This document shows positions 36,985 to 42,302 of a stretch of DNA of 64,000 bases, piece by piece (within the stretch, counting starts at the first letter, position 1; every line of letters starts with the position of its first letter). Under the pieces are notes generated by a model. The model did no database searches and was not told the origin of the DNA. It saw only the letters and a program-made list of their open reading frames with translations. The translations under genes were made by a program, and so were the position numbers. The stretch covers positions 24,790 to 88,789 of the forward strand of contig CAMUJH010000009.1 of NCBI GenBank assembly GCA_947089145.1, written 5' to 3'. Source of the stretch: an uncultured Hungatella sp. Its GTDB lineage: Bacteria; Bacillota; Clostridia; Lachnospirales; Lachnospiraceae.

Positions 36985-38094
36985 ATGGAACGAATCAAAA
37001 AGAATTTCGGTTTTGGAGCTATGCGTCTGCCTATGAAAGACGGCCAGGTAGACATACCCCAGACCTGCCGGATGGTGGATGCTTTTCTGGATGCGGGATT
37101 TAATTACTTTGACACGGCTCACGGGTATCTGGACGGAAAGAGCGAGCTGGCTTTGCGGGAGTGCCTGACCAGCCGTTATCCCCGGGAACGATACATACTT
37201 ACGGACAAGCTGACAAACTTCTATTTCAAAAAACAGGAGGATATCCGTCCGTTCTTCCAGAGCCAGTTAGAAGCCTGCGGGGTGGATTACTTTGATTTCT
37301 ACCTGATGCATGCCCAGGGCGTGGAAAATTTTGCGTTTTTCAAAAAGTGCCGCGCATATGAAACCGCTCTGGAGCTGAAAGAGGAGGGGAAGATCCGGCA
37401 TTTCGGCATTTCTTTCCATGACCGCGCCCAGGTGCTGGAGCAGATCCTCACCGAGTATCCGCAGATCGAAGTTGTGCAGATTCAGTTCAACTATGTGGAC
37501 TACGATGACCCTGCGGTGGAGAGCGGCAAGTGCCTGGAAGTCTGCCGGAAATTTAATAAGCCGGCCATCGTCATGGAGCCGGTAAAGGGAGGCAATCTGG
37601 TCAACCTGCCAAAGAAAGCTGCCCGGATATTCACGGAACTGGGCGATGCCAGTCCTGCCAGCTATGCCATACGCTATGCCGCCGGGTTTGAGGGGATTAT
37701 GATGGTTCTCTCCGGCATGAGCACCATGAAGCAGATGGAGGACAATCTTGGCTTTATGAAAGATTTTAAGCCGCTGAACCAGGAAGAGACGGAAGCCGTG
37801 GAAAAGGTCCGCCAGGTCTTCCGCTCCATGAACCTGATTCCCTGTACCGCCTGCCGGTACTGCACGGCAGGATGTCCGCAGAACATCTCCATCCCAGACC
37901 TGTTTGCCGTTATGAACACAAAGCAGATTTACCATGATTGGAATGCCGACTATTATTACAATGAGGTTCACACTAAGCAGGGCGGCAAGGCCAGCAGCTG
38001 CATCAAATGCGGGAAGTGTGAGAAAGCCTGTCCCCAGCATCTCCATATTCGGGACCTGCTGGTGGATGTGGCAAAGGAATTTGAGAAGAAATAA
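36985..38094 (+). CDS. aldo-keto reductase with C-terminal 2[4Fe-4S] ferredoxin domain
   Basis: 369 residues. Residues 1-~270: AKR barrel (F-G-A-M-R-L-P-M, D-T-A-H-G-Y with the catalytic Tyr, Y-L-M-H-A-Q). Residues ~280-369: two Cys motifs, C-T-A-C-R-Y-C-T-A-G-C-P and C-I-K-C-G-K-C-E-K-A-C-P, for two [4Fe-4S] clusters. This AKR-ferredoxin fusion is common in anaerobes and probably exchanges electrons with ferredoxin-type carriers. Starts 1 base after the MerR gene with GGAGGAG ahead. Substrate probably an aldehyde or ketone. Confidence 0.95.
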   Translation: MERIKKNFGFGAMRLPMKDGQVDIPQTCRMVDAFLDAGFNYFDTAHGYLDGKSELALRECLTSRYPRERYILTDKLTNFYFKKQEDIRPFFQSQLEACGVDYFDFYLMHAQGVENFAFFKKCRAYETALELKEEGKIRHFGISFHDRAQVLEQILTEYPQIEVVQIQFNYVDYDDPAVESGKCLEVCRKFNKPAIVMEPVKGGNLVNLPKKAARIFTELGDASPASYAIRYAAGFEGIMMVLSGMSTMKQMEDNLGFMKDFKPLNQEETEAVEKVRQVFRSMNLIPCTACRYCTAGCPQNISIPDLFAVMNTKQIYHDWNADYYYNEVHTKQGGKASSCIKCGKCEKACPQHLHIRDLLVDVAKEFEKK

Positions 38095-38109
38095 AGTGAG
38101 TAAGGAAAA

Positions 38110-38143
38110 CGCTGCAGAGCCTGCATTTACAGGCTCTGCAGCG
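38110..38143 (-). terminator. terminator between convergent genes
   Basis: Perfect 14-bp stem CGCTGCAGAGCCTG (38110-38123) with CAGGCTCTGCAGCG (38130-38143), 6-base loop. On the - strand it is followed by TTTTCC. It is 200 bases past the stop of the large - strand gene and 15 bases past the aldo-keto reductase stop, so it may serve both. Confidence 0.75.
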
Positions 38144-38345
38144 TATAAGAAAAACAAGCGGACTGATTCCGACAGTGGCGGTCAGAGTGGGAACCAGCGG
38201 GCAGAGGCAGGGCAGATAACTCCCAGAGTGCTGGAAAAGAAACTCATGATCGCGTCTACGAAACTGAAAGCAATTGGAAATAAAAGGCCGCGCACATCCT
38301 TTCCTGCGGAGAGCTGATGCGACGATGTACTGACAGGCGTGAGGC

Positions 38346-41300
38346 CTATCTGGGCCCGGATTTTACCATTCCGCCTTTCCCTTTCTTAAACTCCTCCTTT
38401 GCCAGCACTTTAACATCCTCTTTTTCTGGTCTGCGGAATGGCTTCTTCCGTGCATTTCCGCCAAGCTCATCCAGATCCATCTTCACCCTGCCGCCGGCGC
38501 TAAGCTCCTTCTCTTTTTGAATCCGTTCAATTTCCTTCGGGCTTCCCACGGTATAATTCCCCGAAGTCCTGTCAAAATAGCAGATTTTTCCCTGGCCTGT
38601 GGTGAGATAGCGGGCTGCGTTTTTGTAGCTGTTATCATCCGCCGTAATCGTGTCTACCAGCTGCACCTGCAGCATGACTGCCGACATTCCCCAGGCTTCG
38701 CCGATTTTCTCTGACAGCTGGCTGCAGGAGGTAAGCCCCCTGGTATCCTCCACAAACCGCTCCAGATTCTCCCTGGCAAACAGGGCGTTGGCAATCGTTG
38801 ATTTGTCGGTCATCTTTTCCGTATCGGGCCTCACATAGGAATCTGACGCCAGGAAATCGCTGTACTCCTTCATGTACCGGATCTCTCCCATGGCCCGGGT
38901 TTTTCCGGTCATGTCAGACATCTGATCGCCGTAGTGTTTCTCCATGGGCTCAAATATCTGGTTAAAATCCTGGGACACATCCCGGATAAACACGTTCTTC
39001 TCATAGGCGGCTGCCAGAGTCTCAGGTTTTAAGTCGGAGAGAGGTTCATAGGGGAAGTCCATGATTTTTTGGTGGATGTCCTTGGCCATTTGAAAACATT
39101 CCCGCTCCCTGTCCGCCACATACTGGCTGTAGCCTGCGTCCGAACCGTGGACTTTTGCGTATTCATCCTTTTCCATAACGGCGATCTGCCGCAAAAATTC
39201 CCTTCCGATCTCCGCCTTTCGGCTGTTAAGAGCCGGATCGTCTGAGAGTATCTCCTCAGGAGTCATGCCTTTGGTCAGCGCATAGGCGCGGACAATGCTT
39301 ACGCGGGAGTCCCGGCGGTGAAGGGTGTTGATCATGCCCACGCGGACCTGCTCTTTTTCGCCTCGGATATTATCCTGTTCATCCTGATACTCTACAAGCC
39401 TTTGAATATTTCTTCCCCGCTCCTCCTTTGTCTCCCCCAGGGCGCCAAAATATGCCATGTCGTCCAAAGCCTCAAAGGCGGCGCTCTTCTCGATGGTTCG
39501 GGCCATCAGCTTTTGTCCCCGTTCCCGCTCCTGTATCTGGGCTGCTTCGGCTTTTGTCACCTTTTGGGCTCTCATGCGCGCTTTTCTGTCCGCGTTGCGT
39601 ATGTCGTCCAGGCCGATATCTTCAAATTCATTCTGCCAATCTGCGGCCCCGTGCTGAATCTCATGGGTGATTCTCCGGATTTCAGCGGCTGTTCCCACAT
39701 GGTACTGTCTGGAGCCCTTGTCGTATACGCATACAGGATTTTTTCCGTCCGCCAGATAGCGGCCGCATTCCGCCCTGTTTTTTGGCTCGGAGACGAAAGA
39801 AGACAGGTTGTATCTTAATGTTTCGGCATTGGAGAACCACTGATCATCAATGGAGCCGGGAATCTGTCCCCATAAAGTAACGGCAGATGTGTCTCTCTGA
39901 TAGCGGGCCGCATTTTCTCTTGCCGTGATTCCGTCGACAATCCCCATGGTATCCTCAGCCCGGAAGCAGTGGGACATGACATAGCCGTCCTTGGCCATGG
40001 CATTGATAAAATCCGCCGCATGGCGTATCTCCCTCATATCATACATTTCCTGGCTGATAGTGTCATATTCCGCCGGGTTTACGTTCTTCCCATTGTCGGA
40101 CGTACACTGGTAAAGATCCCCCATAGCTTCTCCCATAAACTGGTTCCTGGCATAAAAATCCGAAAGGGTCTTTGGGCTTAGATCCGGCATTGCCTCATAG
40201 GGAAGGAGCTTCACTGCCTGAAGAATCTGTTTTGTCACCTCGTAGGCCTCTTTGCGCCTTTCTGTCAGGTAGCCTTCATAGTCCGCCTGGGCGCCGTGCT
40301 CTTTCCGGTAGTCGGCTTCGTCGGAAATACTGAACATGTTCACCATCTCCTTTCCGATTTCCTGCTTCCTGTCAAGGAGGGCCGGGTCGTCGGAAAGCAC
40401 CTCTTCCATGGTCATGCCCTTGGACAGGGCATACAGCCGCACAAAATTTACTCTGGAAGACATCCGCTCCATAGTTTCCAGAAGGCGGTCCTGCTTTTCG
40501 TTGTACAGGGCCTTTCTAATCCCGCTCATGACGGCGTCGCTGGAATCACCCAGGAAACCAAAGTAGGCCTGATCGTCCTTGACAGTATGCTGCCGATGCC
40601 TGCTTATGGCGGTCAAGGCCATCTGGCGGTTGCGTTCCCTTTCCTGGATGCCTGCCAGCTGTTCCCGCACAGAGCCCAGGCGCTCCTCCTCATTAAGCTC
40701 TTTTAAGCTTATGCGCTCCGCCTTCTCCTTTTTCGTCTCGGATTTGATGTGGAAGAACCGCAGGGCCCGCTTCCACACGGGGATCTCCTCAGTTAGGTTC
40801 ACTTTCACATGCATGGGAATGGGATCGCTTAACCGATATCCGTCCCCTGTCTTCACATAGGGGCAGATGTCCACCTTTCCCTTTCCTTCCAGGGCATAGG
40901 CCACAACCTCGCACTTGGCTCTTGCCTGGTATTCCTGATGCGTTTCATTGCTTCTGTAAGGCAGCCATTCCGCAAGGCTCTTTCCGTCCACGAATACGCT
41001 GGACAGATAGCCGTTTTCCCGGTTTTTTAGCGCTTTCAGGTCATTGTCCGCATAAATGCCTTCCATCATCCGGTCAAAGGTCCCCGCGCCCCATTCCCTG
41101 GCGACCCGGTCCGGCTTTGCCCTGCGGATTTTGCTGATATAATTGTCAGCTGTCACGTCCGTGGCCGCACTGGGTTCCATGACCATGGTCGCTGATTTGG
41201 GGATCACGGTTAAAGCCGGCTGGCTTACGTATCCCGCCCTGGTTCTAAAGGGCTCCATATCCTGCCCCGGGGGGATGGCCCGGGACAGTCTTTGAAAGAC

Positions 41301-41843
41301 TCTCTGCTCTGCGTCAATCTCCGTTTGATCCGTGGGCATCCGGTCTTTGATTACATTGTCCGCAAACAGGGAGTCAAACAGGCTGTCGTAAACTCTCATG
41401 GCCTCGCTGGTGCGGCCCAGTTCTGTTGCATTGGCGGTATTTTTTTCTATCAGCTCACGGCGGATTTCCGGAGGGATCTCATACCGTCTGTCATAGAGCA
41501 GCTGATTGACCTGCCCAAAGGCCATGGCCTCGGCCTTTTGGTCTAAATGTTCCTCAAACATGACCCGGTAGTCCCTTATCAGGGCCTCGGCCGCTCTCTT
41601 TCTTGGGGAGTCATCCACATGGTTCAGCCTTTCGGCCGCCACTCCCAGCCTGCGGGCCAGCCGCACTAAGTAGTCTTCCAGGCCAATAAAACGTTTCTCC
41701 ACAAAATCGGAGATGGTCATGTTGTCGCTTCCGATTATGTCCTCCCACTTCATGTCCCCGGCAGCTTCCTCCATCAGCTCTCCGGCCTTCTGACAGGCAA
41801 GTTTCCACACTTCGTCATAGGTTTTTAATCTTGTAACAGCCAT
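38346..41843 (-). CDS. large two-repeat protein of unknown function (1165 aa)
   Basis: The start at 41843 has AGGAGG 6 bases upstream and gives M-A-V-T-R-L-K-T-Y-D-E-V-W; a longer frame to 41894 has no ribosome site. No signal peptide or membrane helix; strongly charged. Residues 1-~405: unique N-terminal region, mostly helical. Two diverged repeats follow: A (about 407-724) and B (about 779-1107). They share A-Y-F-G-x-L-G, Y-A-L-x-K-G-M-T, L-S-D-D-P-A-L, L-P/F-P-Y-E-x-x-x-D-L, and a final Y-x-V-G-x-x-x-E-I-x-R-I. Just after repeat A is H727-E-I-Q-H731, an HExxH pattern absent after B. The tail is Lys/Arg-rich. I recognise no family. Isolated on its strand; function unknown. Confidence 0.88.
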   Translation of the reverse strand: MAVTRLKTYDEVWKLACQKAGELMEEAAGDMKWEDIIGSDNMTISDFVEKRFIGLEDYLVRLARRLGVAAERLNHVDDSPRKRAAEALIRDYRVMFEEHLDQKAEAMAFGQVNQLLYDRRYEIPPEIRRELIEKNTANATELGRTSEAMRVYDSLFDSLFADNVIKDRMPTDQTEIDAEQRVFQRLSRAIPPGQDMEPFRTRAGYVSQPALTVIPKSATMVMEPSAATDVTADNYISKIRRAKPDRVAREWGAGTFDRMMEGIYADNDLKALKNRENGYLSSVFVDGKSLAEWLPYRSNETHQEYQARAKCEVVAYALEGKGKVDICPYVKTGDGYRLSDPIPMHVKVNLTEEIPVWKRALRFFHIKSETKKEKAERISLKELNEEERLGSVREQLAGIQERERNRQMALTAISRHRQHTVKDDQAYFGFLGDSSDAVMSGIRKALYNEKQDRLLETMERMSSRVNFVRLYALSKGMTMEEVLSDDPALLDRKQEIGKEMVNMFSISDEADYRKEHGAQADYEGYLTERRKEAYEVTKQILQAVKLLPYEAMPDLSPKTLSDFYARNQFMGEAMGDLYQCTSDNGKNVNPAEYDTISQEMYDMREIRHAADFINAMAKDGYVMSHCFRAEDTMGIVDGITARENAARYQRDTSAVTLWGQIPGSIDDQWFSNAETLRYNLSSFVSEPKNRAECGRYLADGKNPVCVYDKGSRQYHVGTAAEIRRITHEIQHGAADWQNEFEDIGLDDIRNADRKARMRAQKVTKAEAAQIQERERGQKLMARTIEKSAAFEALDDMAYFGALGETKEERGRNIQRLVEYQDEQDNIRGEKEQVRVGMINTLHRRDSRVSIVRAYALTKGMTPEEILSDDPALNSRKAEIGREFLRQIAVMEKDEYAKVHGSDAGYSQYVADRERECFQMAKDIHQKIMDFPYEPLSDLKPETLAAAYEKNVFIRDVSQDFNQIFEPMEKHYGDQMSDMTGKTRAMGEIRYMKEYSDFLASDSYVRPDTEKMTDKSTIANALFARENLERFVEDTRGLTSCSQLSEKIGEAWGMSAVMLQVQLVDTITADDNSYKNAARYLTTGQGKICYFDRTSGNYTVGSPKEIERIQKEKELSAGGRVKMDLDELGGNARKKPFRRPEKEDVKVLAKEEFKKGKGGMVKSGPR
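38523..40625 (-). repeat. two diverged intragenic repeats of the 1165-aa protein
   Basis: Copy A is about 39670-40625 and copy B about 38523-39506. They are offset by 372-383 codons, with an 11-codon length difference in the first third. Similarity is clear at protein level but the DNA is strongly diverged, so the duplication is old. Confidence 0.8.
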
Positions 41844-42302
41844 AGGCAGCCTCCTGATTCTCCTGGTTGAGTCATGGCCTTTGTGATATCTCACGGTTTG
41901 CTCATGATCATAGGATAATTTTCTTTCAGGATATCACCTGGCAGGGCTCCTTTTCAATAGACCTGTCGCCAACTGTAGGTTTTTCGCACGAACGGCGGGA
42001 TTTTTTGCTTTTTTACCGCTTTAAGCTGAACGGATTCCATTCTTGAAGCATTGGCCTTGGGCTGTGCTGATATCGCTTTTGCCGGTGCCGGCAGATGAAA
42101 AAAGCATAGATTTGTGTATGCGCCTTCGGAAGATAAGGAAAAGAAAAGCCAGAAGAGTTTGGGGCACAAGGTTTCTGGTGTCAGGGGCAATATTTTGACT
42201 TTAAAAGTGGCGAAATCCATGTATAATCATAATCAGTGATTGTATATAGAAACTATAATATGGAATCCTCACAACTTTTTTGGCTTGTAGAAAGGGGAGG
42301 GA
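41844..42302. other. divergent intergenic region between the large protein and the PTS genes
   Basis: 459 bases without a supported gene. TTGACT (42195-42200) and TATAAT (42222-42227) on the + strand are separated by 21 bases, too far for a standard promoter. A second TATAAT is at 42254-42259. A small palindrome GCCGG-TG-CCGGC lies near 42070-42081. No RAT-type antiterminator sequence was recognised, which fits a DNA-binding PRD regulator. Confidence 0.3.

Follow-up and report, generated by a model that had tools for sequence, protein, structure and literature searches.

What is the function of a large soluble protein that matches no known family and stands apart from genes of related function? 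This question arises from a gene in a 64,000-nucleotide stretch of DNA from an uncultured Hungatella sp. (Lachnospiraceae; contig CAMUJH010000009.1, positions 24,790 to 88,789), hereafter the window. The open reading frame (38346..41843, minus strand) starts with an ATG at 41843, its stop codon ends at 38346, and its product of 1165 amino acids (aa) is referred to as P0001. Our analysis points to P0001 as a modular cargo protein, of the substrate or effector type, of an apparently non-conjugative type IV secretion system (T4SS) with a patchy distribution in the Lachnospiraceae and related families. We give this reading a probability of roughly 0.6. The association with the T4SS is seen at three levels: shared modules, genomic association and regulator content.

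The original prediction had described the protein as unrecognised, with two repeats of about 320 residues. Searches agree with the first statement: the best Pfam match scored 12.6 bits (cut-off, 23.6), NCBIfam and PADLOC gave no match at E<=10, and neither PHROGs (best E, 0.088) nor the PDB, including a profile search, gave a credible one. Phage and plasmid records likewise gave no match, nor did the IMG/VR viral contigs in one scan for close relatives only. The two repeats are real, although their length is nearer 345 residues. When residues 392 to 734 are aligned with residues 763 to 1117, 117 of 356 positions are identical (33%) and the score is 193 bits, against 26.9 bits for the best of 1000 shuffles. 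Both copies, called B repeats here, contain the predicted order of motifs (AYFGxLG, YALxKGMT, LSDDPAL, PYEx, YxVGxxxEIxRI). Near-full-length relatives are rare, with one other genome among 299 and again one among 397 genomes of the family. Three loci emerged from a scan of GTDB contigs: L006, whose relative has two B repeats; L007, whose relative has one; and L008, from an Oscillospiraceae metagenome-assembled genome, whose shorter and distant relative matches residues 215 to 887.

The first lead beyond these relatives was a weak match (E 3.1e-4) between residues 222 to 329 of P0001 and a 3678-residue protein of the same genus. A profile of four P0001-family members finds the corresponding module, termed A, several times in this giant. 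Across related Clostridia, proteins with A/B modules reach 3678 aa and contain up to 7 A copies. Profile A2 detects A modules in 9 of 26 genomes of the genus (E<=0.05) and in 10 of 392 genomes of the order (E<=0.001), mostly in large open frames. The window and the fetched loci together comprise 782 gene models, some loci being near-duplicates. Since the loci were fetched on the strength of A or VirB4 matches, module B is the independent part of the evidence for a superfamily. Among the 782 gene models, 46 encode A proteins, with 76 A modules in total and lengths of 257 to 3678 residues (median, 919); some of these proteins are cut by contig ends. The B core, the region around YALxKGMTxEExLSDDPALxxRKxxIG, is present in 26 gene models; 20 of these are A proteins, and the remaining 6 have A genes nearby in their loci.

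Seeds from the four P0001-family members alone recover 32 further proteins through module A and 12 through the B core at E<1e-3, with no hit among 782 reversed decoys for either profile. In the opposite direction, a B-core profile made from 13 segments of T4SS-type loci only recovers P0001 at E=1.8e-23, the value for an A profile being 6e-12, again with 0/782 decoys; these E-values flatter the result because the seeds had been recruited by profiles that started from P0001. The decoy results and the gene locations are independent of that recruitment. Profiles A2 and A8 drew in part on proteins that previous profiles had recovered, and decoy and leave-out tests were run. The original prediction had also called P0001 an orphan, a label that no longer applies, as its A and B modules are both shared with a superfamily of large proteins linked to a T4SS locus. 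P0001 is an unlinked member of this superfamily, which is associated with a regulated T4SS of the Lachnospiraceae and their relatives and is apparently undescribed so far.

The link between module A and the T4SS was quantified with a VirB4 profile (A3) built from three T4SS loci. At a threshold of E<=1e-100, this profile is positive in 9/26 genomes of the genus and 24/392 of the order. Among the genomes that the first A profile marks as A-positive, VirB4 is present in 9/10 of the order (p=2e-11) and 7/9 of the genus (p=0.0016). The broad A8 profile extends this to 16 of 19 A-positive genomes among the 392 of the order, compared with 24/392 overall (p=6e-20; 8e-19 with the window's own genome excluded). 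Collapsed to genera, the association stands at 10 of 11, with 174 genera in all (p=1e-13). Because the genomes are related, these p values overstate the evidence and its independence. The test of all 392 genomes supersedes a first contrast of 8/17 against 0/17 genomes, in which all controls came from the window's family (f1) and were therefore phylogenetically skewed.

A survey of the gene neighbourhoods of the homologues, which the original prediction had proposed, finds secretion genes (VirB4, VirD4 and pilin) beside A genes, as well as defence genes near A genes in two genomes, discussed below. The neighbours were identified by eye, with Pfam scans of sets of at most ten genes. Three genomes (G694, G322 and G114) carry A genes in one locus with VirB4, VirD4 (PF02534) and a T4SS pilin (PF18895). 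In the G694 locus, four tandem A genes precede an RsbW-like HATPase_c_2 kinase, a DUF1292 protein, an Rce1-like protein and VirD4 (PF02534, 3e-42). Next come two VirB6-like proteins, VirB4 (PF19044), the pilin (PF18895) and a 1469-residue protein that is a putative lipoprotein; no Pfam match supports the names VirB6-like and lipoprotein, which were assigned by eye. Single contigs combine A genes with a SpoIIE phosphatase, HATPase_c_2, CvpA and VirB4 (G615), or an A gene with VirD4, HATPase_c_2 and STAS (G638, where the VirB4 copies lie on other contigs). In G529, HATPase_c_2, STAS and A genes occur about 15 kb from VirB4, and in G307 and G153 the A genes are on the VirB4 contig. Several of these T4SS loci contain genes for partner-switching regulators (SpoIIE phosphatase, RsbW-like kinase, STAS), and the gene set joins a type IV secretion machine to a partner-switching regulator. 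Putative lipoproteins of 1386 to 1635 aa are encoded near the pilin gene in T4SS loci (L075 13735-18144, L063 13013-17173, L080 6292-11199), the latter two being 36% and 31% identical to the first; a Pfam scan of one such protein gave no match.

A cognate T4SS is encoded in the window's own genome (G000), with VirB4 on contig C55 (1434 bits). The C55 locus also contains a CHASE2 adenylyl cyclase, a SpoIIE phosphatase with a cyclic nucleotide monophosphate (cNMP)-binding domain, a metallo-beta-lactamase-fold protein and three large paralogs. The presence of the cyclase and the cNMP-binding phosphatase on the T4SS contig suggests cyclic-nucleotide control of the partner switch. The three paralogs, on the minus strand (L128 6254-8446, 8537-10771 and 11384-13276; 730, 744 and 630 aa), carry the motif FDFLCxQxDRHxxNMFY...GIDxDLSFG, which resembles a DRHxxN...D kinase signature. 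The best PDB match of their family profile is the pseudokinase FAM20A (E 0.11), over the motif stretch, and kinase-like cargo is a possible reading of these proteins.

The genomes of the three closest P0001 relatives all encode VirB4 (1405, 1408 and 441 bits, the last for a copy truncated at a contig end), in each case on a contig other than that of the relative. Two of the three relatives lie beside T4SS-type regulators. In L007, the relative P0002 is directly downstream of a cyclase that shares 59% identity with its CHASE2 counterpart in the T4SS locus of the window's genome. In L008, the relative P0004 is within 4 kb of RsbW-, STAS-, LytTR- and GHKL-type genes, and the best matches of the RsbW- and STAS-type genes are 42-46% identical to genes of T4SS loci. 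No such regulators were recognised among the neighbours of the relative in L006.

As its modules recur in giant proteins that accompany the T4SS, P0001 is probably a passenger of this system. The predicted route would begin with synthesis in the cytosol, after which the VirD4 coupling protein would recognise P0001 through its disordered, basic C-terminal tail or through one of its modules. Once the regulator switches the system on, the protein would pass through the T4SS channel, and its mainly helical modules may then serve as binding scaffolds in a receiving cell or outside; the recipient could be other bacteria or the animal host. The properties of the tails are consistent with such a route. 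The last 40 residues of P0001 have a net charge of +7, and the tail is unstructured in the model. For the A proteins that are complete and at least 250 aa long (41 of 46), the mean charge of the last 40 residues is +2.8, compared with +0.09 for other proteins (n=409; p=1.6e-5). The chances appear about even for a broader version of this proposal, in which a dedicated non-conjugative T4SS, under cyclic-nucleotide and partner-switch control, delivers giant modular proteins, drawn from a large and rapidly varying repertoire, into other cells, with P0001 as an unlinked member of that repertoire. The earlier suggestions for the protein were an effector, an anti-phage factor or a structural scaffold; the effector is the best of the three.

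A number of observations weigh against the cargo reading. Besides the relatedness of the genomes, the window gene stands alone, its contig (C9) not being the T4SS contig. Module A occurs without VirB4 in three genomes of the order (G524, G526 and G612) and two of the genus (G318 and G319). Conversely, VirB4 occurs without A in 8 of 24 VirB4-positive order genomes (E<=1e-3; G430, G516, G530, G537, G552, G621, G631 and G735) and in two of the genus (E<=0.05; G302 and G306). One of these eight, G621, has A matches at E<=0.01, and five of the eight are in the lowest-scoring VirB4 group (1027-1091 bits), which may represent a different locus type, yet G153 and G120 of this group have A. A patchy, clade-limited distribution and an unlinked window gene would also be expected of a housekeeping or stress protein that shares no more than genome ancestry with the T4SS. 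This explanation is very improbable in view of the genus-level association (10/11), the physical clustering in several families and the fact that the B core, which was not used to choose loci, leads to the same loci.

Further counterpoints concern a role inside the machine. A short motif near the C-terminus was counted in 12/41 A proteins and 23/409 others, an exploratory figure, as the regular expression was written after inspection of the tails. By eye, a similar motif is found in VirB6-like and small T4SS-locus proteins, and for this reason we do not call it a secretion signal; it may be a docking motif, and docking is as likely as export. The AlphaFold2 model of B repeat 1, a check that had been proposed for this gene, is confident and mainly helical (predicted local distance difference test [pLDDT], 87.6; predicted template modelling score, 0.84), and structure comparison gave no informative structural match. 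With a fold of this type and no such match, a binding scaffold is the simplest guess for the B repeat. Together with the shared loci and genomes, the motif and the helical fold would equally suit A/B proteins that stay in the cytosol as working parts of the T4SS, such as substrate receptors, chaperone scaffolds, gates or structural parts. We regard this as unlikely, if the alternative to be taken most seriously. A fixed machine part would be expected to be more constant, whereas the A proteins vary widely in size and number: G309 has 15 A matches over 8 contigs, with VirB4 on yet another, and the window's own genome has 1. In addition, the machine is often missing from the contigs that carry A genes, and a third (8/24) of the VirB4-positive order genomes have no detectable A. 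Proteins that are large, variable in number and scattered fit cargo better than machine parts.

The type of T4SS involved bears on a further alternative, namely that the A/B proteins are cargo of an integrative conjugative element and are sent along with DNA, like the polyvalent proteins of conjugative elements. The machine is indeed homologous to conjugation ATPases and coupling proteins. In a comparison of one VirB4 (L148 14639-17332) with plasmids, all 49 record matches are below 60% identity and 29 of them are from Spiroplasma; the ten plasmid relatives listed are Spiroplasma proteins at 25-30% identity, some of them annotated as conjugal transfer ATPases. This VirB4 link between Spiroplasma plasmids and the present lineage was unexpected. 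Relaxase PF03432 was detected in 4 of 12 T4SS genomes and was absent from the other 8; there was none in G000, and it was never on a VirB4 contig, a result from draft contigs that leaves other relaxase families, the origin of transfer and integrases unsearched; this scope also counts among the reservations about the cargo reading. Neither P0001 nor a second A protein (L060 8563-13524) matches plasmid records, P0001 has no phage match, and partner-switching and cyclic-nucleotide regulators are present. The T4SS is apparently chromosomal and non-conjugative, and conjugative-element cargo is improbable.

The defence genes found in the survey count against the cargo reading as well. Type I restriction-modification M and S genes directly follow A genes in G529 (L070 12300-16042), and in G114:C45 an AbiEi/AbiEii pair (L073 3353-4865) precedes an A gene by about 2.2 kb. 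Both arrangements, as well as the large size, patchy occurrence and solubility of the protein, could be expected of an anti-phage factor. Neither defence pair recurs in the other loci read by eye, where no PADLOC scan was run, and at E<=10 no PADLOC family matches P0001 or the A protein L060 13629-17174. Combined with the lack of a phage relative, this leaves an anti-phage function with hardly any probability.

The local setting of the window gene agrees in most respects with the original prediction (Table 1). The ribosome site is good, and P0001 has neither a signal peptide nor a membrane segment (top 19-residue hydropathy, 1.05; N-terminal maximum, -0.19). A GTG at 41894 is a possible upstream start; the ATG is preferred because of the 6-nucleotide spacing to AGGAGG and because the alignment with P0002 begins at the ATG of that relative. 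A monocistronic layout follows from the flanking genes, a convergent aldo-keto reductase (36985-38094, plus strand) and a divergent phosphotransferase system EIIC (42303, plus strand), and none of the immediate neighbours was recognisable as a T4SS gene. The prediction that the gene has a terminator of its own holds in part: a stem-loop is present, but its T-run is weak and it lies between the convergent genes, which possibly share it. Terminator-like sites overall are not clearly enriched (10 found against 6.6 expected; standard deviation, 2.5). The aldo-keto reductase/ferredoxin gene has a 43% identical counterpart (L007 10678-11802) about 6 kb from the P0001 relative, possibly by chance, as such genes are common. 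Outside N-terminal parts with pLDDT of about 80, the full-length model of P0001 is otherwise poor.

Table 1. Features of the P0001 gene and of the T4SS contig in the same genome
Feature	Position	Strand	Basis
P0001 gene; the product (1165 aa) has a helical N-terminal region, a single A module, two B modules and a basic tail that is disordered	38346..41843	-	
Shine-Dalgarno AGGAGG, 6 nucleotides 5' of ATG 41843	41850..41855	-	Sequence reading
N-terminal region, residues 1-212, mostly helical, parts with pLDDT about 80; common to P0002 and P0003	41208..41843	-	
A module, residues ~238-357, core FVDGKSL ... KCEVVAYALEGKGKVDI	40773..41132	-	
Linker motif KKEKAERISLKEL, residues 371-383; resembles short motifs near C-termini of T4SS-locus proteins (exploratory)	40695..40733	-	
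B repeat 1, residues 392-734 (B core, residues 441-516 = 40296-40523)	39642..40670	-	
B repeat 2, residues 763-1117 (B core, residues 829-898 = 39150-39359)	38493..39557	-	
C-terminal tail, residues 1118-1165, low pLDDT, no regular structure in model; possible secretion signal	38349..38492	-	
16-pair stem-loop between convergent genes, weak T-run, possible shared terminator	38109..38144	-	
CHASE2 adenylyl cyclase and cNMP-binding SpoIIE phosphatase	G000:C55 = L153 4400-6271, L128 4000-5172		

In Gram-negative bacteria, the T4SS effector translocators Dot/Icm, Cag and VirB/D4 have soluble substrates that lack a signal peptide, are often encoded away from the machine and carry C-terminal signals, often basic ones. 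The system described here resembles them in its VirB4/VirD4 machine and in a soluble, unlinked candidate substrate without a signal peptide. It differs from them in its Gram-positive lineage, the absence of a family match and the partner-switching regulators, and export is here a prediction. A second comparison is with polyvalent proteins, which the work describing them (PMC5512222) presents as large proteins with 2-15 domains deployed by viruses and plasmids. The A/B proteins are likewise large, multidomain and linked to conjugation-type machinery. Unlike polyvalent proteins, they show no Pfam family over the cut-off in any of six A proteins scanned (P0001 and five others) and no phage or plasmid match for those tested, the viral contigs having been scanned for close relatives only.

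Among titles and abstracts, a body of literature outside which preprints and most subscription papers fall, no description of the A/B proteins or their locus was found. The parts are of known kinds, a T4SS and partner switching, and it is their combination and the cargo family that were not found in the literature searched. According to passages of a December 2025 review (PMC12857230), it is an open question whether Gram-positive T4SSs serve as dedicated effector translocators. The present locus makes this question directly testable in commensals, as it offers a defined machine, a candidate regulator and candidate cargo proteins that can be counted, and it suggests a route by which members of a common gut family could act on their neighbours or their host. 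The same passages describe the Streptococcus suis 89K T4SS as secreting SspA-1, a subtilisin-like protease, in contrast to the large multi-module proteins without known domains described here. Giant T4SS cargo of such a kind is hardly known from Gram-positive bacteria.

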